A stretch of 64,000 bases of DNA, taken from a bacterium. Its GTDB lineage: Bacteria; Desulfobacterota; Binatia; DP-6. Made by a program: the position numbers and the translations under genes. Position 1 is the stretch's first letter. Each line of letters begins with the position of its first letter. The stretch lies in the NCBI GenBank assembly GCA_026129405.1, contig JAHCID010000005.1, forward strand, positions 62,001 to 126,000. Reading direction: 5' to 3'. Positions 1 through 23,985 of this stretch are shown here, one piece after another. A model generated the notes under the pieces. That model saw only the letters and a program-made list of their open reading frames with translations, was not told the origin of the DNA and made no database searches.

Positions 1-1476
1 GCCGAGATGCTCTCGGCGCTGGCCGAGGTCATCGACGATCCGCGTCCCGATCTCGCGGTGCTGGAGAAGGTCCCCGGCCTCGCCTTCCGGCTCGGCGATC
101 GCATCGTGCGCACGCCCGACCGCGAGCGCATCACCGACCTCGACGTCATCCCGTCGCCGTATCTGACCGGTCTCTTCGACAGCTTCGGCAAGGCGTCCAC
201 CGAGGCGGCGGTGATCGAGAGCAACCGCGGCTGCCCGTACGGCTGCACCTTCTGTGACTGGGGCTCGGCCACCGCGCAGCGCATCCGCAAGTTCTCCCTC
301 GAGCGCGTCTTCGAGGAGATCGAGTGGTGCGCGCGCCACGGCGTCGAGACCATCGGGCTCGCCGACGCCAACTTCGGCGTCTTCGAGCGCGACGTCGCGA
401 TCGCCGAGAAGGTCGCCGAGGTGAAGGCGCGCTACGGATACCCGCGCCACTTCGGCGTCAACTACGCCAAGAACTCGCTGAAGCACCTGAAGCCGATCGT
501 GAAGATCCTGAGCGGCGCCGGCACCATCGCCTACGGGCAGCTGTCGCTCCAGTCGATGGATCCCGGGACGCTCGAGACCATCGAGCGCCACAACATCAAG
601 TCGGAGAAGTACCACGAGCTGGCGCAGGAGTTCCGGCAGGCCGGCCTGCCGCTGTTCATCGACCTGATGATGGGACTGCCCGGCAGCACCGTCACCTCGT
701 TCCGCGCCGATCTCCAGCAGGCGATCGACCGCGAGGTGATCGCCAAGGTCTATCCGACCCAGCTGCTGGTCAACAGCCCGATGAACGATCCGGAGTACCG
801 CCAGGAGCACGACATCCAGGCCAAGCCCGGCGCGTTCCTCACCTCGTGCGCCAGCTTCTCGACCGCGGACTACGCGCGCATGAAGGAGATGCGGCGCGTG
901 TTCCTGCTGCTGGAGAAGTTCGGCATCCTGCGCCACGTCGCGCGCCACGTGCGTCGCGAGGTCGGCGTCCGCGAGATGGAGTTCTTCGAGCGCCTGCTCG
1001 ACGACGGCCGCGCCGCGCGCACGCGCTGGCCGGTGCTCGCCTTCACCCTCGAGTCGGTGCCGAACCTCATGGTGCCGCCGGGGCGCTGGCAGCTGCTGCT
1101 CGACGAGGTGCGCCAGTACCTGACCGAGGTGGTGCACATCGCCGACGACTCGGCGCTCGACACCGTGCTCACGGTGCAGCGGCTGCTGCTGCCGGCGCGC
1201 AACCGGCGCTTCCCCGACGAGGTGCAGCTGCCGCACGACTACGCCGCCTGGTACGGTGCGATGCTCGCCGCGAAGGACGCCGGCCATCTCCAGGACTGGC
1301 CGAGCGTCGTGCCGCCGCTGCGCGAGTACGGTCCCGGGACGCTGCGCGTGAGCGACCCGTTCGACGTGTGCGTCTTCGGCATCGGGCACTCGGTGGAGTC
1401 CGACAGCTTCGGCGTCTGGGAGCTCGATTCGCCGATCTCGCGCCCCGTCGTCCCGCTGCACTCCGCCCTCGGCTGA
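1..1476 (+). CDS. Radical SAM protein, B12-binding type (5' end outside window)
   Basis: The reading frame is open from the left edge, so the protein is probably cut at its N-terminus; the ATG at 7 need not be the start. The visible part contains the radical SAM cluster motif CPYGCTFC (Cys76, Cys80, Cys83 counted from the ATG at 7), followed by DWG, then a TIM-barrel-like region with GLPG and a long C-terminal extension. The stretch before the motif resembles the linker that normally follows a cobalamin-binding domain, so a B12 domain upstream of the window is likely. Such enzymes make a 5'-deoxyadenosyl radical and often methylate or rearrange unactivated carbons. The gene runs in the same direction as the downstream KS genes and may belong to the same locus. 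The substrate cannot be told from sequence. Confidence 0.85.
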   Translation, partial: AEMLSALAEVIDDPRPDLAVLEKVPGLAFRLGDRIVRTPDRERITDLDVIPSPYLTGLFDSFGKASTEAAVIESNRGCPYGCTFCDWGSATAQRIRKFSLERVFEEIEWCARHGVETIGLADANFGVFERDVAIAEKVAEVKARYGYPRHFGVNYAKNSLKHLKPIVKILSGAGTIAYGQLSLQSMDPGTLETIERHNIKSEKYHELAQEFRQAGLPLFIDLMMGLPGSTVTSFRADLQQAIDREVIAKVYPTQLLVNSPMNDPEYRQEHDIQAKPGAFLTSCASFSTADYARMKEMRRVFLLLEKFGILRHVARHVRREVGVREMEFFERLLDDGRAARTRWPVLAFTLESVPNLMVPPGRWQLLLDEVRQYLTEVVHIADDSALDTVLTVQRLLLPARNRRFPDEVQLPHDYAAWYGAMLAAKDAGHLQDWPSVVPPLREYGPGTLRVSDPFDVCVFGIGHSVESDSFGVWELDSPISRPVVPLHSALG

Positions 1477-1568: not shown

Positions 1569-1573
1569 GTGGC

Positions 1574-2008
1574 ATGAAGGGGTTGCGGTTGCTGGTGGGA
1601 GCGGCGGCGCTGGGCGCGTCGCTCGGCGTGGTGAGCCCGGCGCAGGCGGAGTTTCTCGAGGACGCCGGCTGGGGCTCCCTGACGGTCCTGTCCAACGTCC
1701 TCTACATGCCGGCGAAGGTCGGCTACGCGCTCTTCGGCGGGCTCACCGGCGGGGCGGCCTACGGGCTCACCGGCGGTGACTACGACACGGCGCAGAACGT
1801 CTGGGATCCGGCCCTCAGCGGCACCTACGTGCTGACGCCGGGCATGCTGAGGGGCGAGCAGCCCATCCAGTTCGCAGGACCGGTCACCCCGGGCACGTCG
1901 TCCACGTCGGCTTCGTACGCTCCGCTCGCCGAGGCTCCGCCCGATCCGCCCGCGCATCAGCAGAGCGCCGGCGGCTTCAGCGACGAGGCCATCGGTGGGG
2001 GCATGTGA
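1574..2008 (+). CDS. Small exported protein of unknown function
   Basis: This is a 144-residue protein. Its N-terminus (MKGLRLLVGAAALGASLGVV, then SPAQA) is a typical Sec signal peptide with cleavage after AQA near residue 24. The mature part has a Gly-rich hydrophobic stretch around residues 45-70 (repeated GGLTGGAAYGLTGG-like run) that could sit in or on a membrane, then a Pro/Ser-rich tail. The ATG at 1574 was chosen because of the strong Shine-Dalgarno site just before it. I do not recognise a characterised family. It lies between a radical SAM gene and the ketosynthase core, but nothing ties it to either. Confidence 0.7.
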   Translation: MKGLRLLVGAAALGASLGVVSPAQAEFLEDAGWGSLTVLSNVLYMPAKVGYALFGGLTGGAAYGLTGGDYDTAQNVWDPALSGTYVLTPGMLRGEQPIQFAGPVTPGTSSTSASYAPLAEAPPDPPAHQQSAGGFSDEAIGGGM

Positions 2009-2067: not shown

Positions 2068-3264
2068 GTGATGGCCGGCGCGTCTCGGGAGCCCGTGATC
2101 ACGGGATGTGGGGTCGTCTCCCCGCTCGGTGAGGGTGTACCCGCCTTCTGGGAGGGGCTGCTCGCGGGGCGGTCGGCGGTCGCGCCCGCCCGCGGCTTCG
2201 CCGCCGCCGATCTCGCGCCGAACGCGGTCGCCGAGGTGCGCGGCGTCGCCGACGACGATCCCGACCGGGCCGGTGCCTTCGCGCTCCTCGCCGCCGCCCA
2301 GGCGCTGGCCGAAGCGGGGCTCGACGTGCCGTCCGCGACCGCGCGCTGGGGGGTCGCGCTCGGCACCACGCTCGGCGGCATGCGTCTCCACGAGCTCTGG
2401 GACGCGGGCCGTCCGGAGGCCCTGCCCGCGCTCGCGGCGATCCCGTACTACGGCCCCGCCGTCCGCCTGGCGCGGCGCTTCGGCTGCCGGGGGCCGGTGG
2501 CCACCGCGCAGCTGGCCTGTGCCTCCGGCACGCAGGCGATCGCCTGGGCAGGCCGCTGGATACGCGACGGCCGCGCCGACGTCGTGCTGGCGGGGGGGGC
2601 CGACCTCCTGTGCCGCTTCGTGGTGGCCGGCTTCAACTGTCTGCGCGCGACGGCCGATACGGCGCGCCCGTTCGACCGCCGTCGCCAGGGCCTCGTGCTG
2701 GGCGAGGGCGCGGCGCTGGTCGTCGTCGAGAGCCGCGCCCATGCGGAGGCGCGGGGGGCGCGGCTGCGGGCCGTGCTGCGCGGGGCGGGCGCGGCCGCGG
2801 ACGCGGTCCACATGACCGCGCCCGATCGCGAGGGCGGCGGCGCGGCGCGTGCCATGACCGCCGCCTTGCGCGACGCCGGGGTCGATCCTACGGCGGTCGG
2901 TCTGGTGTCCGCCCACGGCACCGGTACCGTCTACAACGATGCGATGGAGGCGGCCGCGCTGGGGCGCGTGTTCGCGGAGCACCGCGTGCCGGTGAACTCG
3001 ATCAAGGGCGCGATCGGCCACACCCTCGGGGCGGCTGGCGCGTTCGAAGCGGTGATGTGCGTGCAGGCGCTCGCCACCGGATGCATCCCGCCCACCGCCG
3101 GACTCGAGGAGCCGGACCCGGCGTGTGCGGCGATCGACCTCGTGCGGGGCGCGGCGCGCTCCGCGCCGGTGGCGGTCGCACTCTCCACCTCGTCGGGCTT
3201 CGCGGGCGCGAACGCGGCGCTCGTCCTGGGGGCGCCGAGCGGTGCGCCGATGGGAGACCGGTGA
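2068..3264 (+). CDS. Beta-ketoacyl-ACP synthase (KS1), catalytically complete
   Basis: A FabF/type II PKS ketosynthase of 398 residues that condenses an acyl group on its active-site cysteine with malonyl-ACP. The triad is visible: Cys151 in ACASGTQ, His283 in SAHGTGT and His318 in IGHTLGA, with the SIKG lysine just before the last. The C-terminal Gly-rich SGFAGANAALVLG motif is also present. GTG at 2068 or ATG at 2071 can start it. Its stop overlaps the GTG start of the next gene (GTGA), which encodes a ketosynthase lacking these residues, so the two probably form a KS/chain-length-factor-type heterodimer as in aryl polyene and type II PKS systems. Length is normal for the family. Confidence 0.92.
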   Translation: MMAGASREPVITGCGVVSPLGEGVPAFWEGLLAGRSAVAPARGFAAADLAPNAVAEVRGVADDDPDRAGAFALLAAAQALAEAGLDVPSATARWGVALGTTLGGMRLHELWDAGRPEALPALAAIPYYGPAVRLARRFGCRGPVATAQLACASGTQAIAWAGRWIRDGRADVVLAGGADLLCRFVVAGFNCLRATADTARPFDRRRQGLVLGEGAALVVVESRAHAEARGARLRAVLRGAGAAADAVHMTAPDREGGGAARAMTAALRDAGVDPTAVGLVSAHGTGTVYNDAMEAAALGRVFAEHRVPVNSIKGAIGHTLGAAGAFEAVMCVQALATGCIPPTAGLEEPDPACAAIDLVRGAARSAPVAVALSTSSGFAGANAALVLGAPSGAPMGDR

Positions 3265-4280
3265 GCGGAGCGCTGGCGATGAGCGGCGTCGGTGCGCTGA
3301 CGGCGCGCGGGACGCTCCCGGCGCGCTGGAGTGGGCCGCCGCCGGGCGTGATGGGCGCGGTGCCCCTCGACGTCCTGCCGGAGCCGGCGCGTGGCCGCGC
3401 GGCTCGCGCCGAGCGGCTGACGCAGCTCTTGCTCGGTGCGGCGCTCCCGGCGCTCGACGCCGCGGCGCTGCTCGCGATCGACGGCCCGCCGCGCCCGCGT
3501 CTCGGCGCCGTCGTCGGCACCGCCTTCGGCTGCTTCCTCACCAATGCCGCCTATCAGCACCGACTCGCCGAGGGCGGCATGCCCGCCGCGAGCCCGCGCC
3601 TCTTCGCCGCGACGGTGTCGAACGCCGCCGCCGGCGAGCTCGCGATCGCCGCGCGGCTCGGCGGTCCGTCGATCACCGTGACGGCCGGCGCCGCGGCCGG
3701 TCTCACCGCGCTCGCCGACGCCGCCGACCTGGTGGCGCAGGGCCACGCCGACGCCCTCGTCGCCGCCGGCGTCGATGCGCAGGGCGCCGCGCTGGCCGCG
3801 TTCGTCGCTGCCGGCGGCCTCGTCGTGCGCGATCCGCCGGGCGAGGCGGCGGGGGCTCTGGTGGTCGAGCCGCTGGCCGCCGTACGGGCGCGCGGCGCGC
3901 ACCCGTACGGCCTTCTCGCCGGCTGGGCGCTGGGCTTCGAGCCCGACGCGCACGGACCCGAGGGCGGGGCGGCGCTCGCCGAGACCATCGGCCAGGCGCT
4001 GGCGCAGGCCGACGTCGCGCCCGGCGGCCTGGCGCGCGTCGTCGCGCCGGCCGGCACTGCCGCCGTCGACCGCGGCCTGCGTCTCGCGCTGGGCGACGCG
4101 GCGCCGCCCGACGATCCGGTGCGCGCCGCGCTCGGCGAGACGCTCGCGGCGCACGGCCCGCTCGCCGTGCAGCACGCGCTCGCCACCTCCGCCGCGGGCG
4201 ACGTCGTCCTCCTCGTCGACGCGTGTGCGAGCGGCCACCTGGCGGCCGTCGTCGTGCGTGCCGCGGAGGGTAGGGCGTGA
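3261..4280 (+). CDS. Ketosynthase-like chain-length-factor partner (CLF1), active site lost
   Basis: A 339-residue thiolase-fold protein, short for a ketosynthase. In the nucleophile elbow, where active ketosynthases have TACSSG, it reads TAGAAAG, so the catalytic Cys is replaced by Ala. The HGTGT histidine is also absent (PAGTAA). It is therefore unlikely to condense by itself and resembles KS-beta/CLF proteins that shape chain length in a heterodimer. The GTG start at 3261 overlaps the KS1 stop, and an in-frame ATG lies at 3279. Its own stop overlaps the GTG of the ketoreductase gene. Tight coupling on both sides supports a role in the same complex. Family assignment rests on the overall fold pattern, since sequence decay is considerable. 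Confidence 0.78.
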   Translation: MSGALAMSGVGALTARGTLPARWSGPPPGVMGAVPLDVLPEPARGRAARAERLTQLLLGAALPALDAAALLAIDGPPRPRLGAVVGTAFGCFLTNAAYQHRLAEGGMPAASPRLFAATVSNAAAGELAIAARLGGPSITVTAGAAAGLTALADAADLVAQGHADALVAAGVDAQGAALAAFVAAGGLVVRDPPGEAAGALVVEPLAAVRARGAHPYGLLAGWALGFEPDAHGPEGGAALAETIGQALAQADVAPGGLARVVAPAGTAAVDRGLRLALGDAAPPDDPVRAALGETLAAHGPLAVQHALATSAAGDVVLLVDACASGHLAAVVVRAAEGRA

Positions 4281-5032
4281 CGCTCGCCGGGCGGCGCGTG
4301 CTCGTGACCGGCGGCTCGCGCGGCATCGGACGCGCGACGGCGCTCGCCTGTGCGCGGGCCGGCGCCGCCGTCGCCTTCAACTGGTCGCGCAGCGAGGACG
4401 GCGCCGAGGCCGAGGAGACGCGGGCCGCGCTCGCGGCCGCCGGGGGCACGGTGCACGCCGCCCAGGCCGACGTCGCCGACGCGGGCGCCGTCGCCACGCT
4501 CTTCGCCGACGTGCGCGCGGCGCTCGGCGGCCCCGTCGACGTGCTCGTGAACAACGCCGCCGTGAGCCAGGACGGCCTCGTCATGCTGCAGAGCGAGGAG
4601 GCCTTCGCGCGCACGGTGGCCGTGAATCTCCAGGGCGCGTGGCTCTGCTGCCGGGCGGCGCTGCGCGGCATGATCGCCGCCCGCGGCGGGCGCATCGTGA
4701 ACGTCGTCTCGCCCGCGGCGTTCTTCGGCAAGGAAGGCGCCGGCGCGTACGCCGCGTCGAAGGGCGGCCTCGTCGCGCTCACGAAGTCGCTCGCGCGCGA
4801 GGTCGCGCGCTACCGGATCACCGTCAACGCCGTGTCCCCCGGCTACGTCCGCACGCAGCTCACGGCCGACCTCGACGCGCGCACGCGCGGCACGCTCGAG
4901 CAGCAGATCCCCCTCGGTCGTTTCGCCGATCCCGACGAGATCGCGGCGGCGATCGCCTTCCTGGCGTCCCCCGCGGCGTCCTACCTCACCGGCACCACGC
5001 TCCACGTGGACGGTGGGCTCACGATGATTTAA
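4277..5032 (+). CDS. fabG: 3-oxoacyl-ACP reductase (KR), FabG-like SDR
   Basis: A 251-residue classical short-chain dehydrogenase that would reduce the beta-keto group of an ACP-bound chain with NADPH. Visible motifs are TGGSRGIG for cofactor binding near the N-terminus, VNNAA, the catalytic Ser in VVSP, and AYAASK with Tyr and Lys. The end HVDGGLTMI is typical of FabG. The GTG start at 4277 overlaps the stop of the KS-like gene, and the ACP gene follows 11 bases after its stop. Position within the KS/ACP/DH set indicates a dedicated ketoreductase of this pathway rather than the housekeeping FabG. Confidence 0.9.
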   Translation: MTLAGRRVLVTGGSRGIGRATALACARAGAAVAFNWSRSEDGAEAEETRAALAAAGGTVHAAQADVADAGAVATLFADVRAALGGPVDVLVNNAAVSQDGLVMLQSEEAFARTVAVNLQGAWLCCRAALRGMIAARGGRIVNVVSPAAFFGKEGAGAYAASKGGLVALTKSLAREVARYRITVNAVSPGYVRTQLTADLDARTRGTLEQQIPLGRFADPDEIAAAIAFLASPAASYLTGTTLHVDGGLTMI

Positions 5033-5043
5033 ACGAGGCTTCG

Positions 5044-5304
5044 ATGGAGAGTAACGGTCTGCTCGGGGAGGTGAAGGACCTCCTCACGACGGGGCTCCGC
5101 CTGACGACGGCCCCCGCCGACATCCCGGACGACTCGCCGATCTTCGGCGAGGGGCTGGGACTCGACTCGATCGACGCGCTGGAGCTGGTCGTCCTGGTCG
5201 AGGAGCGCTTCCACGTCTCCATCCCCGACGAGGAGGTCGGCAAGCGCGCCTTCGCTTCGGTGCGTGCGCTGGCGGACTTCATCGCCGCGGAGCGCCCGCG
5301 CTGA
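5044..5304 (+). CDS. Acyl carrier protein
   Basis: An 86-residue acidic four-helix acyl carrier protein. Ser42 in GLDSIDALEL is the expected attachment site for 4'-phosphopantetheine. The ATG at 5044 is preceded by a weak GAGG. It sits between the ketoreductase and the second ketosynthase, so it would carry the growing chain for this pathway. It is the only ACP in the window; no phosphopantetheinyl transferase gene is visible here, so activation must come from elsewhere in the genome. Confidence 0.92.
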   Translation: MESNGLLGEVKDLLTTGLRLTTAPADIPDDSPIFGEGLGLDSIDALELVVLVEERFHVSIPDEEVGKRAFASVRALADFIAAERPR

Positions 5305-5312
5305 CGGGTCCC

Positions 5313-6542
5313 GTGCGGCACTCGCGGGTCGCGGTGACGGGGCTGGGCGCGGTGACCGCGCTCGGTGCCGACGTGGCGTCGCTGGCGGCGGCGCTCGCCG
5401 ACGGCCGGCGCGCGATCGGCCCGCTCACCCGTTTCCCGCACGCGGGGCGCTGTGCGATCGCGGCGCAGGTGCCGGAGCTCACGCCGGAGGCCGTCGACGG
5501 CGCGCGCGCGCGGCTGTCGGCCGCGACGGGCCGCCGCCTGTCGTATCCCGACCGGCTCGGCCTCGCGGCGACGGCGCAGGCGCTGCGCCAGGCGCGGCTC
5601 GAGCCGGGCGCCCGCGGCGACGTCGGCGTGTACGTCGGGGCGTCGGTCGGCGGCATGGGCGATGCCGAAGCGGCGTACCAGCGCCGCCAGGAGGGCCGCG
5701 ATGCGCGCTACCGCCTCTCGCGCCTCCTGCCCGCGCCGCTCTCGAACACCGCCGCGGCCCTCGCGCAGGGCCTCGGCCTCCAGGGCCCGCGCGCGACGTT
5801 CTCCACGGCGTGCTCGTCGAGCGCGCTCGCGATCGCCGAGGCGGCCGACGCGATCGCACGCGGGCGCGTGCGCCAGGCCGTCGCGGTCGGCACGGATGCG
5901 CTCTGCCGCATCACGTTCTCCGGCTTCGACGCGCTCCAGGCGCTCGACGCGCGGCCGTGCCGCCCGTTCGCGGCCGACCGCGCGGGACTGTCGCTCGGCG
6001 AGGGCGCGGCGGCGCTCGTCCTCGAAGACGTCGACGTCGCCCGGGCGCGCGGGACGGAGCCGCTCGCCTTCGTGCTCGGCCATGGCGTGGCCACCGACGC
6101 GCACCACGTCACCGCGCCGCATCCCGCGGGCGCGGGCGCGCGCGCGGCGCTCGAGGCCGCGCTGGCGGCGGCCGGCGTGTCGCCCGACGCCGTCGACTAC
6201 GTCAACGCGCACGGCACCGGCACGCCGAAGAACGACGCCATCGAGCTGGCCGTGCTGCGCGCCGTGCTCGGCGACCGCCTGCCGCGCGTGCCGGTCAGCT
6301 CCACGAAGGCGCAGGTCGGTCATTGCCTCGCGGCCGCGGGCGCCGTCGAGGCGGTGGTGACGGTGCTGGCGCTGGCCGAGGCGCTCGTCCCGCCCACCGC
6401 CGGCCTCGCCGGCGTCGACCCCGAGTTCGCCGACCTCGACCTCGTGCCGCTGCCCGGGCGCCGCCAGGCGCTGGACGTCGCCGTGAGCTCCTCGTTCGGC
6501 TTCGGCGGCCACAACGTCACGCTCGTCCTCGGGCGCGCCTGA
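5313..6542 (+). CDS. Beta-ketoacyl-ACP synthase (KS2), catalytically complete
   Basis: A second FabF-type ketosynthase, 409 residues, GTG start 8 bases after the ACP stop. The catalytic residues are present: Cys167 in STACSSS, His300 in NAHGTGT and His337 in VGHCLAA. It also has the C-terminal SSSFGFGGHN motif that is typical of FabF and of aryl-polyene ketosynthases. It is only moderately similar to KS1, so this is not a recent duplication. Each of the two active ketosynthases is followed at once by a degenerate ketosynthase, suggesting two distinct KS/CLF condensing pairs that may act at different chain lengths or on different starters. Confidence 0.92.
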   Translation: MRHSRVAVTGLGAVTALGADVASLAAALADGRRAIGPLTRFPHAGRCAIAAQVPELTPEAVDGARARLSAATGRRLSYPDRLGLAATAQALRQARLEPGARGDVGVYVGASVGGMGDAEAAYQRRQEGRDARYRLSRLLPAPLSNTAAALAQGLGLQGPRATFSTACSSSALAIAEAADAIARGRVRQAVAVGTDALCRITFSGFDALQALDARPCRPFAADRAGLSLGEGAAALVLEDVDVARARGTEPLAFVLGHGVATDAHHVTAPHPAGAGARAALEAALAAAGVSPDAVDYVNAHGTGTPKNDAIELAVLRAVLGDRLPRVPVSSTKAQVGHCLAAAGAVEAVVTVLALAEALVPPTAGLAGVDPEFADLDLVPLPGRRQALDVAVSSSFGFGGHNVTLVLGRA

Positions 6543-6550
6543 GGTCGGCG

Positions 6551-7680
6551 ATGGCCACTCCCGTCGCCGTCACCGGCATCGGTGTGCTCAGCGTCGCCGG
6601 CTGCGGCGTCGACGCGTTCTGGGACGGGCTGTGCGCCGGCGTCGCGCCGGCGGCCGACCGGCTGCGGCTCGACGTCGCCGGGACGGTGCGCACGCCGCAG
6701 GGCCGGCGCATCGACCGCGCCTCGCTGCTGACCCTCGCCGCCGCACGCGCCGCGCTGGTCCATGCCGACCTCGCCGCCGACGCGCTGCCGCCCGGCCGCA
6801 GCGGGCTCGCGCTCGGATCCGCCTTCGGCAACGTCACCGAGACGCAGACGTTCCTCGATCGCCTGCTCACACGCGGCTCCGGCAACCCGCTCGTCTTTCC
6901 GAACCTGGTGATGAACGCCGCGCTCAGCTACGCCACGATCGAGCTCGGCACGACGGGGCCGTCGGCGATGCTGACGGAGCAGGAGGCGTCGGGCGAGGCG
7001 GCGCTCGGGTGGGGCGCGCAGCAGGTGGCCGACGGGAGGCTCGACGTATGTCTCGCCGGCGGCGCCGACGAGGTGACCGACGAGCTGCTGCGCATCGAGC
7101 GCGAGACGCGGGTGGCGAGCCCGCGCGGCCTCGCGCGGCCGTTCGATCGCGACGCCGACGGCGTGCGTCCCGCCGAGGGCGCCGCCGTGCTGGTGCTGGA
7201 GCCGGCGGCGCGTGCGCAGGCGCGCGGCGCGCGCATCTGGGCCTTGCTCGAGCCGCATGTGGGCGCGTCGGTGCCGTCACCGCTGCATGGCTGGCCGGTG
7301 GACGCCGCCGCGCTCGCCGGGGTCCTCGCGCCCTCCTCGCCGACGCCGACCTCGTCGTCGCCGCTGCGAGCGGCGCGCCGGCGCTCGACGCGGTCGAGGC
7401 CGACGCGCTGGCCGTCGCGCTCGCCGGGCGGGCGACGCCGATCACCGCGCCGCGCGGCGTGACCGGCCAGTTCGGGGCCGCCGGTGCGCTGGCGGTGGCG
7501 ACGGCCGTGCTGGCCCTCGCCCGTGGCGCCGTGCCCCCGACCGCCGGCTGTCGCACGTGCCGGCGCGGCGACCTCGCCGTGGTGCGCGACGCACCGCTCG
7601 CCCGCCCGCTGCGCACGGCCGTCGTCGACGGCATCGCGCGCGGCGGGGCCTGCCGGCCCTTGCGTCTCCGTACGCCGTGA
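6551..7680 (+). pseudogene. Ketosynthase-like chain-length-factor partner (CLF2), frameshifted
   Basis: The coding signal starts at the ATG at 6551 in one frame and continues after about 7322-7335 in the -1 frame to the stop at 7680. Before the shift the elbow reads LTEQEASG, so the catalytic Cys is replaced by Glu with a Gln beside it. After the shift the frame shows a ketosynthase C-terminus (GQFGAAGA, then VPPTAG) with the last His replaced by Gln, and the HGTGT region reads AASGAPA. Without the shift the first frame ends at 7462 in low-complexity Arg/Ser-rich sequence. One missing base in the C-rich run near 7325-7337 would restore it. This may be a sequencing or assembly error, a true lesion, or less likely programmed -1 frameshifting. 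If repaired it would encode about 376 residues, a normal size. Confidence 0.75.
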
Positions 7681-7702
7681 TGGTGTGTAGGGGCCGCCCG
7701 CC

Positions 7703-8113
7703 ATGGCCGACGTGACGAATCCGGTTCCGCGTCTCCCGCACGGCTCGCCGTTCCTGCTCCTCGATCGGGTGCTGGAGATCGGCGACCGCACGGGCGTCTT
7801 CCTGAAGCACGTCACCGCCGCCGACCCCTGTGTCGGCGCCGACGGCACCCTCGCTGCCGCGTTCGTGCTCGAAGCGCTGGCGCAGGGCGGCGGCGCGCTG
7901 CTCTCGGCGCTCACCGACGGCACGCCGTCGGCCGGCTACCTCGCCGCCGTCGACGACTTCCGCCTGGTGGCGCCGATCCGGGTCGGCGAGGCGGTCCGCG
8001 TCGAGGTCGAGGTGCTGCGCCACTTCGCGGCGGCGACGCAGATCCGCGGCCGGGCGCTGGTCGACGGCGAGCTGCGCGCCGAGGGACGGGTCACGCTGGC
8101 GCAGCCGCGCTGA
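7703..8113 (+). CDS. ApeP-like hot-dog fold 3-hydroxyacyl-ACP dehydratase
   Basis: A 136-residue single hot-dog protein. The N-terminus LPHGSPFLLLDRV and the helix motif FVLEALAQGGG match the FabZ/ApeP dehydratase superfamily. The FabZ catalytic motif GHFP is missing: between the two motifs there is only a short acidic loop. ApeP-type dehydratases of aryl polyene clusters also lack GHFP and keep the early PH and the Glu of the central helix, so that assignment fits better than FabZ. It would dehydrate ACP-bound 3-hydroxyacyl intermediates to the trans double bonds of a polyene. It is the last gene of the plus-strand core and is convergent with the RidA gene. Confidence 0.8.
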   Translation: MADVTNPVPRLPHGSPFLLLDRVLEIGDRTGVFLKHVTAADPCVGADGTLAAAFVLEALAQGGGALLSALTDGTPSAGYLAAVDDFRLVAPIRVGEAVRVEVEVLRHFAAATQIRGRALVDGELRAEGRVTLAQPR

Positions 8114-10865: not shown

Positions 10866-11810
10866 ATGGACGGGGACCGGGTGCGACAGGCCCTGCGCTT
10901 CGACGGGGCCTGGTGGCGCCGCCTCGCGGAGATGGGCTGCGTCTATGGGCCCGAGTGGTGGAAGCGCAGCGCCCCGCCTGCCATCGCGGCGCTCATCTAC
11001 GCGATCGCCCGCGGCCAGCGCGAAGCGGTGCTCGCAAACCAGCTCCAGGTGCGCGGCGCGCGCCGCGCGCTGCGCGAGCACTGGGACGCCTACTGCGTCT
11101 TCGCCGAGCTGGCGCGCTCCATGACCGAGGGCATGGAGCAGTGGGGCCCGCACCCGAAGCCGCTGACGGTCACGATCCACGGCCAGGAGCTGGTCCATGC
11201 CGCGCTCGCCGAAGGCCGCGGCCTCGTCATGCTGACGGGCCACTTCGGCTCGTGGGAGGTCGGCGCCCGCCTGCTGTCCGACCTCGGCCGCCCGGCGCAC
11301 CTCGTCACCGCGCACGAGCCGAACCCGACCGTGCACGAGTTCCTGCACCAGATGCGCACGCGGCACGGCTTCAACGTCATCTACTCCGACCGCTCGCTCT
11401 TCACCGGCCTGCCGGTGCTGCACGCGCTCCGTCGCCACGAGATCGTCGGCATGCAGATCGAGCCGTGGGGGCCGAAGCGGGGGAGCCAGGTGGTCGACTT
11501 CTTCGGCCGGCCGACGAGCTTCCAGCTCGGCCCGTTCGCGGTGGCCCGCGTGGCGCGGGCGCCGATCGTGGCGGTGTTCGCGCTGCGCACGGGCATCCGG
11601 CGCTACGAGCTGCGCATCGTCGGGCGCTTCGATCCGCGCACGCCAGCGGAGAGCGTGCAGGCGCTGCGGGACACGGTCGCGCTCTACGAGGACGTCGTAC
11701 GGCAGGCGCCGAGCCAGTGGCTCATGTTCGAGCCGGTCTGGGGCGGCGAGGCGGGAACCGACGCGGAGGGTGCGGCGGCCCCGGCGCGTGCGGCCGGCGC
11801 CGGACGCTAG
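10866..11810 (+). CDS. LpxL/HtrB-family lysophospholipid acyltransferase
   Basis: A 314-residue acyltransferase of the lipid A biosynthesis acyltransferase family. The catalytic HX4E motif is visible as GHFGSWE (His126, Glu131), with a later EPWGPKRGSQVVDFFGRP block typical of the family and a conserved FEPVW near the C-terminus. The usual N-terminal membrane anchor is weak, with one hydrophobic segment near residues 38-50. In aryl polyene clusters a similar acyltransferase links the polyene to a lipid, so by context it may esterify the product of this locus. It could also be a lipid A enzyme unrelated to the cluster. It is flanked by its own promoter upstream and a convergent radical SAM gene downstream. 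Confidence 0.82.
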   Translation: MDGDRVRQALRFDGAWWRRLAEMGCVYGPEWWKRSAPPAIAALIYAIARGQREAVLANQLQVRGARRALREHWDAYCVFAELARSMTEGMEQWGPHPKPLTVTIHGQELVHAALAEGRGLVMLTGHFGSWEVGARLLSDLGRPAHLVTAHEPNPTVHEFLHQMRTRHGFNVIYSDRSLFTGLPVLHALRRHEIVGMQIEPWGPKRGSQVVDFFGRPTSFQLGPFAVARVARAPIVAVFALRTGIRRYELRIVGRFDPRTPAESVQALRDTVALYEDVVRQAPSQWLMFEPVWGGEAGTDAEGAAAPARAAGAGR

Positions 11811-11825: not shown

Positions 11826-13187
11826 TCACGAGATCGTCCCCCACGCCTCCGGGTTCCGTCGCAGGTACCCGTGCACCTTCGCGTTGGCGACCAGCATCGC
11901 CATCGACTCCAGCAGGTTCTTCCGCGGCGGCGGCACGAAGCGGCGCAGCATGCTGCGCACCGAGTAGAAGCCGCGGTAGACGTACTGGAAGCCCTCCAGC
12001 ATCTCGTCCGTCGACATGTTCTGCGGGCGGACGATCGGGCTGCCGTAGTCGTAGCGTCCCCAGTCGCGGTCGAGGATGCGGCCGGCCGCCTCCATGTCGG
12101 TGTGGAACTTGGTGCCGGGGTAGGGCGCCGGCGTGAAGAGCTTCAGGAAGCTGATGCGGTTCTGGTCGAGCCACTCGAGCGTCTTCGGGAAGGTCTCGAG
12201 GGTGTCGCCGTCGAGCCCGACCATGACCAGGGCGATCACCTGGATGCCGGCGTCGCGCAGCTTCCTGATGTCCTCGGCGAAGCGGGACGGGCGGTTGAAC
12301 TGCTTCGCGACCTGGGCGAGCGAGTCCTCGCTGAGGCTCTCGAAGCCGATCGAGAGGACGCGGCAGCCGGAGCGCGCGACGAGGTCCAGCAGCTCGGGGT
12401 CGCGCGCGACGTTGATCGTCGCCTGGCTCACCCACTGCACCTTGTGCGGGACGAGCGCGCGCAGCATCTCCTTCGCCGCCTCGGGGCGCGCCACGGGGTT
12501 GTCGTCCATGAGGAGGAAGCGGCGCGCGCCGATGGTGCGCATGCGGGCGATCTCGTCGATGAACTCCTCGACCGGGCGGGTGCGATAGCTGCGCTGGTAG
12601 TACGTCTGCACGGCGCAGTACTCGCAGGGATGCGGACAGCCGCGCGAGAAGAACGTCGGCCAATAGAAGTACATGCGGTAGAGCCAGCTCGCGCGGAAGG
12701 CGTCGGGCTTGAGCAGCGGCAGCGACCACGGGTCGATCGCGGGTACGTCGCGCAGATCGTGCCAGCGCTCGGCGCGGTAGATGCCGCGCGAGCGGCCGGC
12801 GGCGAGGTCGGCGAGGACGTCGGCCCAGACGTACTCGGCTTCGCCGGCGACGACGGCGTCGGCGTGGCGCAGCGAGTCCTCCGGCGTCAGCGTGACCCAG
12901 GTGCCGCCGAGGACGACCTTCCTGCCGCGGGCGCGGAAGCGATCGGCCAGGTGGTAGGCCCGCGTGATCTGCGGGCCCATGGCCGTCAGGCCGACGACGT
13001 CGGCCCACTGCTCCACCGCCTCGAGGTCGAGGTCCTGCATCAGCTCGTCGGCGAAGCGGACCTCGTGCTCCGGGGGCGTCAGCGCCTTCAGGTAGGGGAG
13101 CGTCGTGCCGCTCGTCCAGTAGCGCGTCGTCTTGTGGAGCGAGCCGTCGGGCAGGTGGTGGCTCGGCGAGATCAGGAAGATGCGCAT
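11826..13187 (-). CDS. B12-binding domain radical SAM protein
   Basis: A 453-residue protein with an N-terminal cobalamin-binding Rossmann domain (about residues 1-140, including DVVGLTAMGPQ and VVLGGTWVT) and a radical SAM domain with Cys184, Cys188 and Cys191 (CPHPCEYC). Conserved later segments are LLMDDNP, IGFESLSEDSL and GLDGDTLETF, then PAPYPGTKF. The layout is that of BchE/HpnR-like class B enzymes, many of which do methyl transfer, oxidative cyclisation or ring contraction. The B12 domain lacks an obvious DXHXXG motif, so base-off histidine ligation is doubtful. The start at 13187 is preceded by a good promoter. Substrate unknown; by context it probably tailors the pathway product. 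Confidence 0.88.
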   Translation of the reverse strand: MRIFLISPSHHLPDGSLHKTTRYWTSGTTLPYLKALTPPEHEVRFADELMQDLDLEAVEQWADVVGLTAMGPQITRAYHLADRFRARGRKVVLGGTWVTLTPEDSLRHADAVVAGEAEYVWADVLADLAAGRSRGIYRAERWHDLRDVPAIDPWSLPLLKPDAFRASWLYRMYFYWPTFFSRGCPHPCEYCAVQTYYQRSYRTRPVEEFIDEIARMRTIGARRFLLMDDNPVARPEAAKEMLRALVPHKVQWVSQATINVARDPELLDLVARSGCRVLSIGFESLSEDSLAQVAKQFNRPSRFAEDIRKLRDAGIQVIALVMVGLDGDTLETFPKTLEWLDQNRISFLKLFTPAPYPGTKFHTDMEAAGRILDRDWGRYDYGSPIVRPQNMSTDEMLEGFQYVYRGFYSVRSMLRRFVPPPRKNLLESMAMLVANAKVHGYLRRNPEAWGTIS

Positions 13188-13244: not shown

Positions 13245-13273
13245 TTGACTCCCCCTGCCGTCGCAACGCACGC
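13245..13273 (+). promoter_or_regulatory. Possible promoter for the PaaK-like ligase gene
   Basis: TTGACT is a good -35 match, but the hexamer 17 bases later (GCACGC) is poor. The TTG of this box is what would be used if the gene started at 13245, which is one reason to prefer the GTG at 13284. Confidence 0.3.
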
Positions 13274-13283
13274 TGCCGGGGAC

Positions 13284-14672
13284 GTGAGCCAGGCGCCGTC
13301 CGTTCCCGCCGCGGCCCCCGCCGCCGATCCCATCGCCGCCCTCGACGCCACCGTCGCGCGTGCGGCGAAGAGCCCGCTGTATGCGACGCGCCTCGCCGGC
13401 GTCCGCATCCGTGCGCTCGACGACCTGCACGCCCTGCCCCTGACGACGCGCGCCGATCTCCAGCAGGCGGGACCGCACGGCACGCGCGCGGTGCCGCTTG
13501 AGGCCGTCTGCCACTTCGGCGAGTCGTCCGGTACGAGCGGCGGCGCGGTCAACACGACGTGGCTCACCGCCGACGACTTCGCGCGCGACGCCGCGACGCT
13601 GCGGGCTCGCCATCCCGACGTCTTCGCCCCCGGCCGCGTGCTGCTGAACCGCTTTCCGTTCATGGCCGCGCCGGCGCACCTGATGCAGCTGGTCGCGCAG
13701 CAGGGCGGCGGCGTCGCCGTTCCCGCCGGCAACATCAACTGGGACGTGCCGTTCCCGCGTGCGCTCGAGCTGGCGCGACGGACGGGGGCGCACGTGCTCG
13801 CCGGCGTGCCGCTCGAGCCGATCGTGCTGGGCGCGGTCGCGCGCGGGCAGGGCATCGACCCGGCCCGCGACACCGCGGTCGACACGCTCTTCCTCGGCGG
13901 CGCCGCGCTGCCCCCGGCGCTCCAGCGCCGCATGGCGCGGACGTGGGGGGCGCGCGTCATCGAGCTCTACGGCTCCACCGAGACCATGCTCCTCGGCACC
14001 TCCTGCCCGCGCGCGACGCTGCACCTCGAGGACGGGCTCGCCTTCGCCGAGGTGCTCGACCCGGCGACCGGCACGGCGGTCCCGCTGGGCGGCGAAGGCC
14101 ATCTCGTCGTCACCACGCTCGGCATCGACGGCAGCCCGCTCGTGCGTTACGACACCGGCGATCTCGTGCGCGCGCTGCCGCCGTGTCCCTGCGGCGACGC
14201 CCGGCCGGCGATCCAGGTCCTCGGCCGTGCCGCCGAGACCGTCGTCCTGGGCGACGTCCGGCTCCACGCCCACGACCTCGTCGACGGTGCCGCATGCGCC
14301 GCCGACGCCCTCGACAGCGACGTCTTCTTCGTCGTCGTCCTGCGCGACCGCATCCTCCTGCGCGTCGAGACCCGCGGCGAGCACGGCGACCCGATGGCCG
14401 CGTGGCGGGCCCGCGTCGGCGACGTGCCGCTCGAGATCGAGTGCGTGGCGGCGTGCGACCTCCTCGACGTCGAGACGCTGGCGCGCAGCCCGCGCGTCTA
14501 CAAGCCGGCCGTCTCGGCCGACTGGCGGGGGCCGGGACGGCGCATCCTCACCGTCGGCGAAGGCATGATCGAATGGCCGCGGCCGAGCGCCGCCGAGGCC
14601 GGACGCTGGATCGCGCGCACCTGGCGGGCGGCCCGCCGCCGTCGCGCGCTCGCCCGCGAGCAGGGCCGGTGA
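13284..14672 (+). CDS. PaaK-type adenylate-forming ligase
   Basis: A 462-residue ANL-superfamily protein of the phenylacetate-CoA ligase branch, activating a carboxylic acid as acyl-AMP and transferring it to CoA or ACP. Visible motifs are the phosphate loop SSGTSGG, the ELYGSTE motif, and VRYDTGDLVR followed by a Cys-containing CPCG loop that is common in PaaK relatives. The C-terminal lid is shortened and lacks an obvious catalytic Lys, but YKPAVS near the end is a candidate. GTG at 13284 was preferred; an in-frame TTG at 13245 would add 13 residues but coincides with a -35 box. The ThiH-like gene starts 1 base after its stop. By context it may load an aryl acid made by the MIO lyase. Confidence 0.85.
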   Translation: MSQAPSVPAAAPAADPIAALDATVARAAKSPLYATRLAGVRIRALDDLHALPLTTRADLQQAGPHGTRAVPLEAVCHFGESSGTSGGAVNTTWLTADDFARDAATLRARHPDVFAPGRVLLNRFPFMAAPAHLMQLVAQQGGGVAVPAGNINWDVPFPRALELARRTGAHVLAGVPLEPIVLGAVARGQGIDPARDTAVDTLFLGGAALPPALQRRMARTWGARVIELYGSTETMLLGTSCPRATLHLEDGLAFAEVLDPATGTAVPLGGEGHLVVTTLGIDGSPLVRYDTGDLVRALPPCPCGDARPAIQVLGRAAETVVLGDVRLHAHDLVDGAACAADALDSDVFFVVVLRDRILLRVETRGEHGDPMAAWRARVGDVPLEIECVAACDLLDVETLARSPRVYKPAVSADWRGPGRRILTVGEGMIEWPRPSAAEAGRWIARTWRAARRRRALAREQGR

Positions 14673-14673
14673 T

Positions 14674-15849
14674 ATGACCGCGAACCCGATGTTCCGGCTC
14701 GAGGTGGAGGCGGTGTGCGCGGCACGCGCGCGGGCAGCGGAGCTGGCGCGGACCCCCGGCGAGGCCGCCGCGCTCCTGGGCGAGGTCGCCCGCGACGACG
14801 CCCCGGGCGGCGACGCCGTGGCGGCCCTGTTCCTCACCCCGCATCTCGACACCGAGACGCTGCTCGCGGCCGCGGCCCGGCGGCGCCGCGCCGCGGGGGC
14901 GCCGCTCGAGACCTTCGCGCCCCTCTATCTCACCAACGAGTGCGACGCCGCCTGCGCCATGTGCGGCATGCGTGCGGGCAACGCGTCCCTGCGTCGCGAG
15001 ACCGCCGACGGCGGCACCGTCGCCGAGCAGCTCGACATCCTCCACCGGCGCGGCCTGCGCGGCGTCGCCGTCCTCACCGGCGAGTACCGCCACGGCGCGC
15101 GCCGCGAGGCCATGATCGCGCGCGCCGCCGAGGCCCTGCGTCTGGCGCTGGACCGCGGCTTCCAGCACGTGCTGATCAACATCGGCGCGCTCGAGGCGGA
15201 CGAGTACCCGACGCTCCTCGCCGGCGTCCCGCGCGACGCCGCCGGCCGCATCGGGCCGCGCGTCACCATGTGCACCTTCCAGGAGACGTACGACCCGGGC
15301 GTCTACGCGCGCTTCATGGGCAGCGACGCCGGCAACCCGCGCAGCGACTTCGCGCGCCGCCTGACCAACTTCGACCGCGCCCACGCGGCGGGTATGTGGG
15401 CGGTGAATCCGGGCGTGCTGCTCGGGCTCCACAAGGATCCGGCGTTCGAGCTGATCGCGCTGCTCGCGCACGTGCGGCACCTCGCGGCGCGCGACCTCGC
15501 GGTCTACGTCAGCGTGCCGCGCCTGCGGCGCGCCAACGACACCACGCTGCGCACCGGGCTCGACGACGACGCCCTCTGCCGCGCCGTCTCGGCGCTGGCG
15601 CTGGGTGCACCGCGCGCGCAGGTCGTGATCTCGACGCGCGAGCCGAAGGCCATCCAGCATCGCCTGCTGCCGGTGATTGGGGTGCTCACGCCCGGCTCGC
15701 CCGGGGTCGCGCCCTACACCCCCGACGGCGCCCGCTTCGAGCTCGAGGCGAGCCAGTTCGAGGTGCTCGATCACCGCCCGTTCGAGGCCATCCTCGGCGA
15801 CGTCGCGGCCACCGGCACGCCCATCGCCTGCTGGGAGCCGGCCGCCTGA
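14674..15849 (+). CDS. ThiH/HydG-like radical SAM protein
   Basis: A 391-residue radical SAM enzyme without a B12 domain. The cluster motif CDAACAMC (Cys90, Cys94, Cys97) is preceded by APLYLTNE, the context seen in the biotin synthase/ThiH/HydG group, where the motif is preceded by an Asn. Also visible are VLTGEY, LINIGALE, VTMCTFQETYDP, and late SVPRLRRAND resembling the ThiH region FSFPRLRP. ThiH cleaves tyrosine to p-cresol and dehydroglycine. Thiamine genes are absent, so a role in this locus is more likely, perhaps on tyrosine or a related aryl substrate. The aromatic residue before the last cluster Cys of ThiH is Met here. It is translationally coupled to the ligase upstream and to the membrane protein downstream. 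Confidence 0.78.
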   Translation: MTANPMFRLEVEAVCAARARAAELARTPGEAAALLGEVARDDAPGGDAVAALFLTPHLDTETLLAAAARRRRAAGAPLETFAPLYLTNECDAACAMCGMRAGNASLRRETADGGTVAEQLDILHRRGLRGVAVLTGEYRHGARREAMIARAAEALRLALDRGFQHVLINIGALEADEYPTLLAGVPRDAAGRIGPRVTMCTFQETYDPGVYARFMGSDAGNPRSDFARRLTNFDRAHAAGMWAVNPGVLLGLHKDPAFELIALLAHVRHLAARDLAVYVSVPRLRRANDTTLRTGLDDDALCRAVSALALGAPRAQVVISTREPKAIQHRLLPVIGVLTPGSPGVAPYTPDGARFELEASQFEVLDHRPFEAILGDVAATGTPIACWEPAA

Positions 15850-19452: not shown

Positions 19453-20601
19453 TCAGGCGCGGCGCCCGCACACCGCGGCGGCGTAGAAGTTCGGCTGGAG
19501 CGCGGCGAGTGCCTCGACGTCGGGCTCGAGGGCGACGTCGGCGAAGCCCGCGCGCCCGAGCGCCGCGCGCCAGTGTGCCGCCGTGAGGAATCCGGGCTCC
19601 GGCCGCGTCGCCGGATCGAGCCGCACTCCGCGCCAGGCGGACAGCAGCTGGAACGGCAACTCGGCGCCCACCGGCACGCCCGGCGCGGGACGCATGCCCT
19701 CGCCGACGACGAGCCATCCGCCCGGCGCCAGCGCGGCATGCGCCTCGGCGAGGACCGCGTCGAGGTCGTCCGCCAGGTGGAACACGTTGACGCCCCACAC
19801 GAGCGTGCAGCTCGCAGTCCCGACGTCCTGCGCGGCCCAGGGGCGGTTCAGGTCGAGGTCGCCGAAGGCGAGGGGGGCGGAGGGAAAGTCGGCGGCGAGC
19901 GTGCGCTGCGCGCGCCGGCGGAAGAACGGCTGCGGCTCGGTGACGGCGTAGGCGGCGAGCGCCGCGCCGCCGCCTACGCCGGCGAGCAGGGTTTCGCTGG
20001 CGCTGCCGAGCCCGGCGCCGACCTCGAGGACGCGCGTGCCGGCCCCGCAGCGGCGGGCGGCGGCGCGTGCGGCGACGTGGTTGTTGAGCGCGTAGTAGCC
20101 GTGGCGGTTGCTGAAGTAGGCGAGCCACAGGGCGAGCCGGGTGAGCAGCGCCTCCTCGCCCGTGGTCTCGCCGCGGAGCACGCGCGGGTAGGCGGCGGCC
20201 GCCGCGTCGACGAGATCGTAGGCCGGGGCGTAGTCCGGCCTCTCGGCGAGCGCCTCGGTGCGCACCGGCCCGGCGACGGGCAGGGGAAGCGGCGCCGTGA
20301 GCCGCCAGCGCGTCCCGTCGGCGACCGCGCGCCCGTCCGCGGCGAGGCGGCGGCAGAGCCAGGCGAGCGCGTCGCGGCGCTCCGGCGCGGCGCCGGCCGC
20401 GGTCGCGAGCGCGTCGAGCGATGCGCCGGCGGCGAGGCGGTCGCCGAGCCCGAGCGCCGCCGTGATGTCCAGCACGCGCTCGGCGACGTAGCGCTCGACG
20501 AGCAGGCAGGCGCGATGCTGCGCGGGATGGAAGACGTCGCCGAGCCCGTCGGCGTCGAGGTGCGCGAGGACGCGCGGGTCGGGCGGCGCGGTGGCGATCA
20601 T
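19453..20601 (-). CDS. SAM-dependent methyltransferase, class I
   Basis: A 382-residue protein. The N-terminal half is helical (about residues 1-160) and the C-terminal half holds a class I Rossmann domain with motif I VLEVGAGLGSASE near residue 195 and a later LAPGGWLVVGEG. This bipartite layout recalls small-molecule and polyketide methyltransferases or FkbM/UbiE-like tailoring enzymes. The ATG at 20601 overlaps the stop of the upstream hot-dog gene (ATGA), so it is the last gene of the minus-strand operon. It probably O- or C-methylates the pathway product. It is convergent with the hybrid kinase gene, with 6 bases between the stops. Confidence 0.82.
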   Translation of the reverse strand: MIATAPPDPRVLAHLDADGLGDVFHPAQHRACLLVERYVAERVLDITAALGLGDRLAAGASLDALATAAGAAPERRDALAWLCRRLAADGRAVADGTRWRLTAPLPLPVAGPVRTEALAERPDYAPAYDLVDAAAAAYPRVLRGETTGEEALLTRLALWLAYFSNRHGYYALNNHVAARAAARRCGAGTRVLEVGAGLGSASETLLAGVGGGAALAAYAVTEPQPFFRRRAQRTLAADFPSAPLAFGDLDLNRPWAAQDVGTASCTLVWGVNVFHLADDLDAVLAEAHAALAPGGWLVVGEGMRPAPGVPVGAELPFQLLSAWRGVRLDPATRPEPGFLTAAHWRAALGRAGFADVALEPDVEALAALQPNFYAAAVCGRRA

Positions 20602-20978
20602 GGCTGCGGTGCGAGCGTGACGCGGGCGGTGAGGAGGACGCGGCCGTCGGCGCCGGCGACGCGGGTGCGGCAGCGCCAGAAGCGCAGCACGCGGCGGTCG
20701 AGCGCCGCGGCGAAGGAGACGGGACCGGCGTGGCACGCGACGCGGACCTCGAGATCGCGGTACTCGGCCACGAGCGCCCCGGCGCCCGGGCCGCCGAGCA
20801 CGCCGGCGAGGAGGCCCGCCGCCTGCGCGGCGCCTTCGAGCAGCTCCGCCCAGCCGAACGGGCCGGCGTTGCGCGACGTGCACACGAGCCGGCCATCCGC
20901 GTGGGCGGTGACGGCGCCGAGGAGCAGCGCCGGCGGCACGTGGCGCAGGAAGGCGGCCGCGTCCGTCGCCGTCAGCAT
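20598..20978 (-). CDS. Hot-dog fold protein, ApeP-like
   Basis: A 126-residue protein. FLRHVPPALLLG near the N-terminus and AELLEGAAQAAG in the central helix parallel the PH...LLLD and E.MAQ motifs of ApeP-type dehydratases. GHFP is absent. The His in RHVPP and the Glu in ELLEG are candidate catalytic residues, but the Asp that usually follows LLL is missing, so activity may be altered. Both ends overlap neighbouring genes by 4 bases, making it a tightly coupled member of the operon. It may dehydrate ACP-bound intermediates, or form a heterodimer with the FabZ-like protein encoded just upstream. Confidence 0.6.
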   Translation of the reverse strand: MLTATDAAAFLRHVPPALLLGAVTAHADGRLVCTSRNAGPFGWAELLEGAAQAAGLLAGVLGGPGAGALVAEYRDLEVRVACHAGPVSFAAALDRRVLRFWRCRTRVAGADGRVLLTARVTLAPQP

Positions 20979-21295
20979 GATCCGGCGACCAGGGCGCGCG
21001 CCGCGACGACGCCGTCCTGCGAGAGCTCGACCGCCGCGTCGCCGCCGTGGCGCCGCACCACCACCTCCACCGCGCCGCCCGGGCGCACCGGGCGCCGGAA
21101 CGTGCAGCGTGCCACCCGGGGCGTCGTCACCCCGGCCGCCGCCACCATCACCTCGAGCAGATAGGCGCCGGGTACGAGCGGGTCGCCGGGGAAGTGGCCG
21201 GCGCAGCGCGCCGCGATCCACGCCGGATCGACGCGCGCGACCGTGCCGTCGCCGGTACGGCGTACGTCGACGAGGGCGGCGGCCGCGGCGCTCAC
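20975..21295 (-). CDS. Short FabZ-like hot-dog dehydratase
   Basis: A short protein whose GTG start at 21295 overlaps the stop of the decarboxylase gene. The catalytic FabZ motif is intact: AGHFPGDPLVPGAYLLEVM contains the His of GHFP and the Glu of the central helix. At about 107 residues it lacks the usual N-terminal strand with PHRYPFLLVD, so it is a minimal hot-dog domain. The stop codon lies at 20972-20974 and overlaps the start of the next hot-dog gene. The two adjacent small hot-dog proteins have complementary features, one with GHFP and one with the N-terminal PH motif, which suggests a heterodimer. Confidence 0.65.
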
Positions 21296-22527: not shown

Positions 22528-22575
22528 GGCGGCGGATGATAGCCGGGGCGGCTGCGCCGAGCGAAACGGAACGGC

Positions 22576-23979: not shown

Positions 23980-23985
23980 CCGCCG

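Follow-up and report, generated by a model that had tools for sequence, protein, structure and literature searches.

The window (the whole stretch of 64,000 nucleotides that was analysed) carries an operon in which two cognate pairs, each consisting of an active-type ketosynthase (KS) and a degenerate KS-fold partner (CLF), appear to share one ketoreductase (KR), one acyl carrier protein (ACP) and one dehydratase (DH). At the level of sequence this reading is well supported, because the gene order is conserved and the KS clades are matched by the CLF clades. In the full model, to which we assign a probability of roughly 0.55, the operon would encode a reducing type II polyketide/fatty-acid-like assembly line akin to aryl-polyene (APE) synthases, with two heterodimers, KS2-CLF2 as the core and KS1-CLF1 as a second pair. 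The less specific statement that two KS-CLF pairs serve an APE-like polyene pathway can be made with good confidence; the joint assignment of early condensation to KS1-CLF1 and main elongation to KS2-CLF2 is tentative and falls somewhat short of even odds.

Gene order, residues, phylogeny and co-occurrence were observed, and from these we infer the heterodimers, the sharing of the ACP, the roles and the product. Each active KS would pair with the degenerate KS encoded right after it, both pairs would extend chains on the common ACP, and KR and DH would turn each beta-keto group into a double bond. The ancestral core elongase would be the ApeO-ApeC-like KS2-CLF2; KS1-CLF1 would be an additional, lineage-specific pair, most likely for the first condensation(s) onto a starter. 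A polyene is the expected product because KR and DH make double bonds and the operon holds no enoyl reductase (Pfam scan and comparison with the E. coli APE set); it is probably a pigment-like polyene lipid.

Operon layout and ketosynthase residues

Open reading frames at 2068-8113 were read and scanned with Pfam and NCBIfam, which gave the order KS1-CLF1-KR-ACP-KS2-CLF2-DH, head to tail (Table 1). CLF1 overlaps both of its neighbours, KS1 and KR, by 4 nt each, the remaining junctions are gaps of 8-22 nt, and a single ACP was found in the operon by Pfam scan. KS1 starts at GTG 2068 or ATG 2071; directly upstream of it, in four relatives, lie homologues (56-65% identical) of the small protein at the operon head, with tblastn matches in five.

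Table 1. Features annotated in the window (positions are those of the window)
Feature	Position	Strand	Basis
Small secreted-looking protein, function unassigned	1571-2008	+	operon head; no Pfam match
KS1, active-type ketosynthase (Cys151, His283, Lys313, His318)	2068-3264	+	Pfam/NCBIfam, conserved residues, KS1 clade 100/99
CLF1, KS-fold partner without nucleophile (Cys to Ala/Gly; second His to Glu)	3261-4280	+	Pfam, alignment, AlphaFold model
Ketoreductase KR, FabG-like	4277-5032	+	PF13561 2.8e-61; 41% to E. coli FabG
Acyl carrier protein ACP	5044-5304	+	PF00550 2e-10; best APE match ApeE, 46%
KS2, active-type ketosynthase (Cys167, His300, Lys332, His337)	5313-6542	+	Pfam, conserved residues; nearest ApeO
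CLF2, N-terminal part as encoded	6551-7462	+	260 in-family residues, then frameshifted tail; Cys to Glu
CLF2 frame-break site, CCC run one base short of intact family frame	7331-7333	+	comparison with relatives
CLF2, C-terminal part, other reading frame	7333-7680	+	PF02801 1e-9; frame break versus six relatives
Hot-dog dehydratase DH, ApeP-like	7703-8113	+	FabA-like and FabZ matches; PH..P.LLL motif common to ApeP
Lysophospholipid/lipid A-type acyltransferase	10866-11810	+	PF03279 3.5e-22; adjoins operon in several relatives
B12-binding radical SAM protein	11826-13187	-	PF04055, PF02310; 76-79% in relatives; conserved near operon
PaaK/FlxY-like AMP-dependent ligase, candidate for starter activation	13245-14672	+	profile matches
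ThiH/NosL-like radical SAM protein	14674-15849	+	TIGR04158 278 bits (cut-off 400); 1 bp after ligase; homologues adjoin KS2-CLF2 in other families
Ladderane-type B12-radical SAM protein	22576-23979	-	TIGR04072 357 bits (cut-off 360)
Halogenase-like FAD protein	23986-25314	-	PF04820 3.5e-43

The sequence-only reading had described two KSs that keep Cys-His-His, each followed immediately by a KS-fold protein that has lost the nucleophile. Both KSs matched PF00109/PF02801 (E 1e-31 to 1e-36), and alignment to E. coli FabF recovered the Cys and the two His in each and added the Lys; the immediate succession of the partners was borne out by Pfam, alignment and junction distances. CLF1 is a 339-aa KS-fold protein (PF00109 7e-12) in which the same alignment placed the Ala that had been read at the nucleophile position of 3261-4280, with Glu at the second His. 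Its AlphaFold model (single chain; input of 16 window and related sequences) reached a pTM of 0.82, and the PDB matches were FabF and KS-CLF structures. In one draft assembly (G003, L060 2133-4216) the CLF1 gene is split between frames, as CLF2 is in the window.

Phylogeny and distribution of the two pairs

The main tree was a careful IQ-TREE run with 67 rows. Four robust clades were obtained in the trees, with CLF1 mirroring KS1 and CLF2 mirroring KS2 (main-tree support 100/99 for KS1, 100/99 for CLF1 and 99/97 for all CLFs of the class); the marked divergence of KS1 from KS2 that had been read from the sequence thus appears as two separate clades. KSs of the class formed one clade with E. 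coli ApeO (97/97), with KS2 grouping with ApeO and Iga11 falling outside. ApeR grouped with FabB/FabF, and KS1 lay outside this FabB/FabF/ApeR group; the position ruled out KS1 as an ApeR, so that any analogy with ApeR-style initiation is functional only. A placement of the CLF-like proteins with unrelated thiolases, named beforehand as counter-evidence, was not found: the CLFs lie within the KS superfamily and none groups with thiolases in trees or structure matches, which ruled out a thiolase origin. CLF1 and CLF2 formed one clade (100/99) in a second careful tree that included other classes; the deepest CLF branching order is unsure because one quick tree shifted CLF1 towards Iga12. On the simplest reading of these trees, a whole KS-CLF pair would have been duplicated within the class and specialised later.

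CLF1 was present in all seven genomes of the order examined (five genera), with the same operon gene order in two loci (L055, L056) and in the covered parts of L057-L063, several draft loci of the order being incomplete or split over contigs. Because the architecture is conserved in every one of these genomes, chance or misannotation was ruled out. Of 148 genomes in the class, 12 had strong CLF1 relatives (all seven of the order, plus G069 and G075-G078), CLF2 accompanied CLF1 in 12/12, and many genomes had CLF2 only, all counts being phylogenetically non-independent. KS2-CLF2 without CLF1 and with the Glu retained was read directly in G097, G101, G104, G106, G144 and G146. Both pairs occur in one locus in two further families (f6, f7); in G075-G078 they share a locus in which a B12-radical SAM gene separates CLF1 from KR, the CLF2 of G075 being a fragment at a contig edge. 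In G016 and G022 the KS1-like enzyme has no CLF1, and the CLF of the KS2-like KS is Gly-type. Other families of the phylum likewise have pairs resembling KS2-CLF2, whose nucleophile position holds Glu or Ala.

Other families also showed further degenerate KSs (Cys to Phe) near KS genes (L114, L115, L116, L117 and L119), and in f24 one KS is flanked by two different CLF-like genes. The two-partner loci of f24 and f27, with a second degenerate KS (Cys to Phe), fell outside the CLF1 group and were excluded as a lineage of their own.

At FabF position 108, the residue limiting the acyl pocket, the alignment gave Leu or Ile in KS1s, Thr in most KS2s, ApeO and ApeR, and Asp in Iga11; the window's own KS2, with Val, is an exception. 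The Iga11 Asp agrees with the Asp113 treated in PMC8358021. A division of labour between the pairs, as the sequence-only reading had suggested, is supported only indirectly: KS2-CLF2 is a widespread core, KS1-CLF1 was never found without it (12/12) and the residues at FabF position 108 differ. The pairs might instead work in parallel, giving two products or chain-length windows from one ACP, KR and DH. Such an arrangement would suit the strong divergence of KS1 from KS2 and the layout in G069, where a single contig carries KS1-CLF1 by itself near 488 kb and KS2-CLF2 near 988 kb (~500 kb apart), but it sits poorly with the tight single operon of the window's order and with the constant company of KS2-CLF2, and we consider it unlikely.

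CLF2 substitutions and frame break

For CLF2 the sequence-only reading had given one gene at 6551-7680 with Cys to Glu, first His to Ser and second His to Gln. The Glu held and is invariant across the order, and the Gln held in the window, with D, W, R or S among relatives; the first His aligned with Ala (gap-dependent) rather than Ser. The Glu also recurs at this site in f6, f7, f13 and f17, and its invariance there and in the order would fit degenerate subunits that are not length factors and perform other chemistry, with the CLF2 Glu aiding malonyl-ACP decarboxylation (compare the Gln in KSQ/CLF) or CLF1 cyclising like AmcG. Although devoid of KS motifs, AmcG heterodimerises and drives cyclisation (PMC10698177), and the cispentacin pair AmcF-AmcG resembles the present pairs in joining a KS to a motif-less KS-like partner. 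NCBIfam matches to AmcF (NF058662; cut-off 325) were obtained for KS1 (247 bits) and KS2 (211 bits), both below the cut-off. Against this stand the presence of KR, ACP and DH, as for polyene elongation and in contrast to the single elongation of AmcF-AmcG, and the variable nucleophile position (A/G/M/L/F in CLF1s, E/G/A/F in distant CLFs), which speaks against a single conserved catalytic role at that site; the proposal is rated as rather unlikely.

The 1130 nt of 6551-7680 do not form a single frame: translation from 6551 meets a stop at 7460-7462. When CLF2 proteins of six relatives are aligned to the window, the match switches from one frame to another within 7331-7368, and the gene is open throughout in 6/6 other genomes of the order examined (387-391 aa); the break in the window is therefore a sequencing error or a private mutation. 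One base missing from the C run at 7331-7333 would explain it. A programmed -1 frameshift was not favoured, since no usual slippery heptamer was seen by eye at 7331-7368 and the relatives are intact.

If the break were real, CLF2 might here be a pseudogene, or a half-CLF like ApeC, leaving only KS1-CLF1 fully working. In the AlphaFold model of the encoded protein the fold extends to about residue 236 and the tail (237-303) is disordered, and the E. coli ApeC CLF has only 240 aa; a structure search with the encoded short CLF2 gave generic KS-fold matches only, and ApeC of A. baumannii retains a single thiolase-fold domain (PMC8358021). A single base in a C run is, on the other side, a typical assembly error, the coding sequence downstream of the break is still conserved, and no break of this kind was found in the other genes compared with relatives, so that loss of CLF2 function is improbable.

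Accessory genes and comparison with known systems

The ligase at 13245-14672 and the radical SAM protein at 14674-15849 suggest starter supply, and the acyltransferase at 10866-11810 suggests lipid attachment; the starter would be unusual and perhaps aromatic. The neighbourhood also points to radical chemistry. A minus-strand group at 19453-25314 comprises a methyltransferase, two small hot-dog-like proteins (one without Pfam match), a LysA-like decarboxylase, the B12-radical SAM protein and the halogenase-like FAD protein. Homologues of 22576-23979 sit between CLF1 and KR in f6 and f7, radical SAM gene homologues lie beside KS2-CLF2 in G069 and G077, and a halogenase-like homologue does likewise in G069; because homologues adjoin KS2-CLF2 in other families, the radical SAM and halogenase-like genes were tied to the pathway. 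A large KedN5-like B12-radical SAM gene crosses the left edge of the window just upstream of the operon (window 1-1476; L012 18975-20000) and does not occur in those loci of relatives that were compared. As in APE clusters, the pairs of other families are accompanied by export genes (LolA, MMPL), and from the lipid A-type acyltransferase and the LolA-like genes the host is apparently Gram-negative. The extent of the cluster is unsure because accessory genes are spread over both strands and as far as 20 kb from the operon. An aromatic amino acid lyase (26023-27573) has relatives of at least 50% identity solely in KS1-CLF1 genomes (10/12); it was retained only as a lead for a starter enzyme, since its profile match is HutH-like and its SH motif is histidine-lyase-like.

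APE synthases of E. coli and Acinetobacter (ApeO-ApeC with ApeR) share with the operon two KSs per cluster, an ACP, a KR, an ApeP-type DH and lipid-transfer genes. Compared with the E. coli set, KS2 was nearest to ApeO (among FabF, FabB, ApeR and ApeO), the ACP to ApeE and the DH to ApeP, and KS1 was nearest to FabF and the KR to FabG. Like an APE cluster, the operon has KR and DH and no enoyl reductase, but it holds one ACP where APE clusters have two. In APE synthesis ApeO-ApeC elongates and the second KS, ApeR, initiates or boosts (PMC8253772, PMC8358021); in the window both KSs have a CLF, KS1 is not ApeR-like, and the CLFs are full-size (339 aa for CLF1, and relatives' CLF2 as above), unlike the half-size, single-domain ApeC.

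The idea of a division of labour is itself not new, because multi-pair type II PKSs with divided roles have been described in actinomycetes. The cinnamoyl-lipid PKSs of Streptomyces (youssoufene ysf, globisporamic acid gla) likewise have multiple KS-CLF pairs, two or three per cluster with modular, staged roles (PMC9381841), and staged action has likewise been proposed for an Amycolatopsis cluster that has two pairs (PMC11446937). Those systems are actinomycete, whereas the KSs of the operon lie in a clade apart from Iga11-type KSs, and the annotated genes included no isomerase for benzene-ring formation of the cinnamoyl-lipid kind. Ishigamide Iga11-Iga12 (6KXD) is also a reducing type II KS-CLF giving a polyene, but with one pair, in other clades for KS and CLF, and with the Asp at FabF position 108.

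Ladderane/FASII clusters of anammox bacteria and Desulfotalea likewise have FabF paralogues, some degenerate, beside SAM radical enzymes, and in Rhodopirellula Glu or Asp replaces Cys in degenerate FabF paralogues (PMC2649909); the pair architecture is not described for those clusters. A ladderane-like or radical-cyclised lipid, made as a polyene by the KS pairs and then cyclised by B12-radical SAM enzymes, would accord with these clusters, with the TIGR04072-type protein just below cut-off and with its homologue inside the f6/f7 operons, but is very unlikely given that this gene lies 15 kb from the operon in the window, that the ladderane pathway itself is unproven, that no ladderane evidence was obtained and that no phytoene-desaturase gene was seen among the genes annotated here.

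A more far-reaching version would be a Gram-negative type II synthase with heterodimers in series on one ACP, the invariant CLF2 Glu doing malonyl decarboxylation or chain positioning, and KS1-CLF1 loading an unusual, radical-SAM-made starter; as a whole it is improbable. Nothing specific was found in the literature on this lineage and polyketide synthases, and two full-size CLFs with a Glu-type CLF2 in this lineage were not found in the literature searched. The two pairs would carry the range of multi-pair KS-CLF systems beyond actinomycetes to uncultured bacteria that are apparently Gram-negative. The Glu-type CLF family invites comparison with the Gln-type CLFs of aromatic synthases, and the existence of single-pair (f13/f17) and two-pair (f1/f6/f7) relatives makes the effect of a second KS-CLF pair testable.
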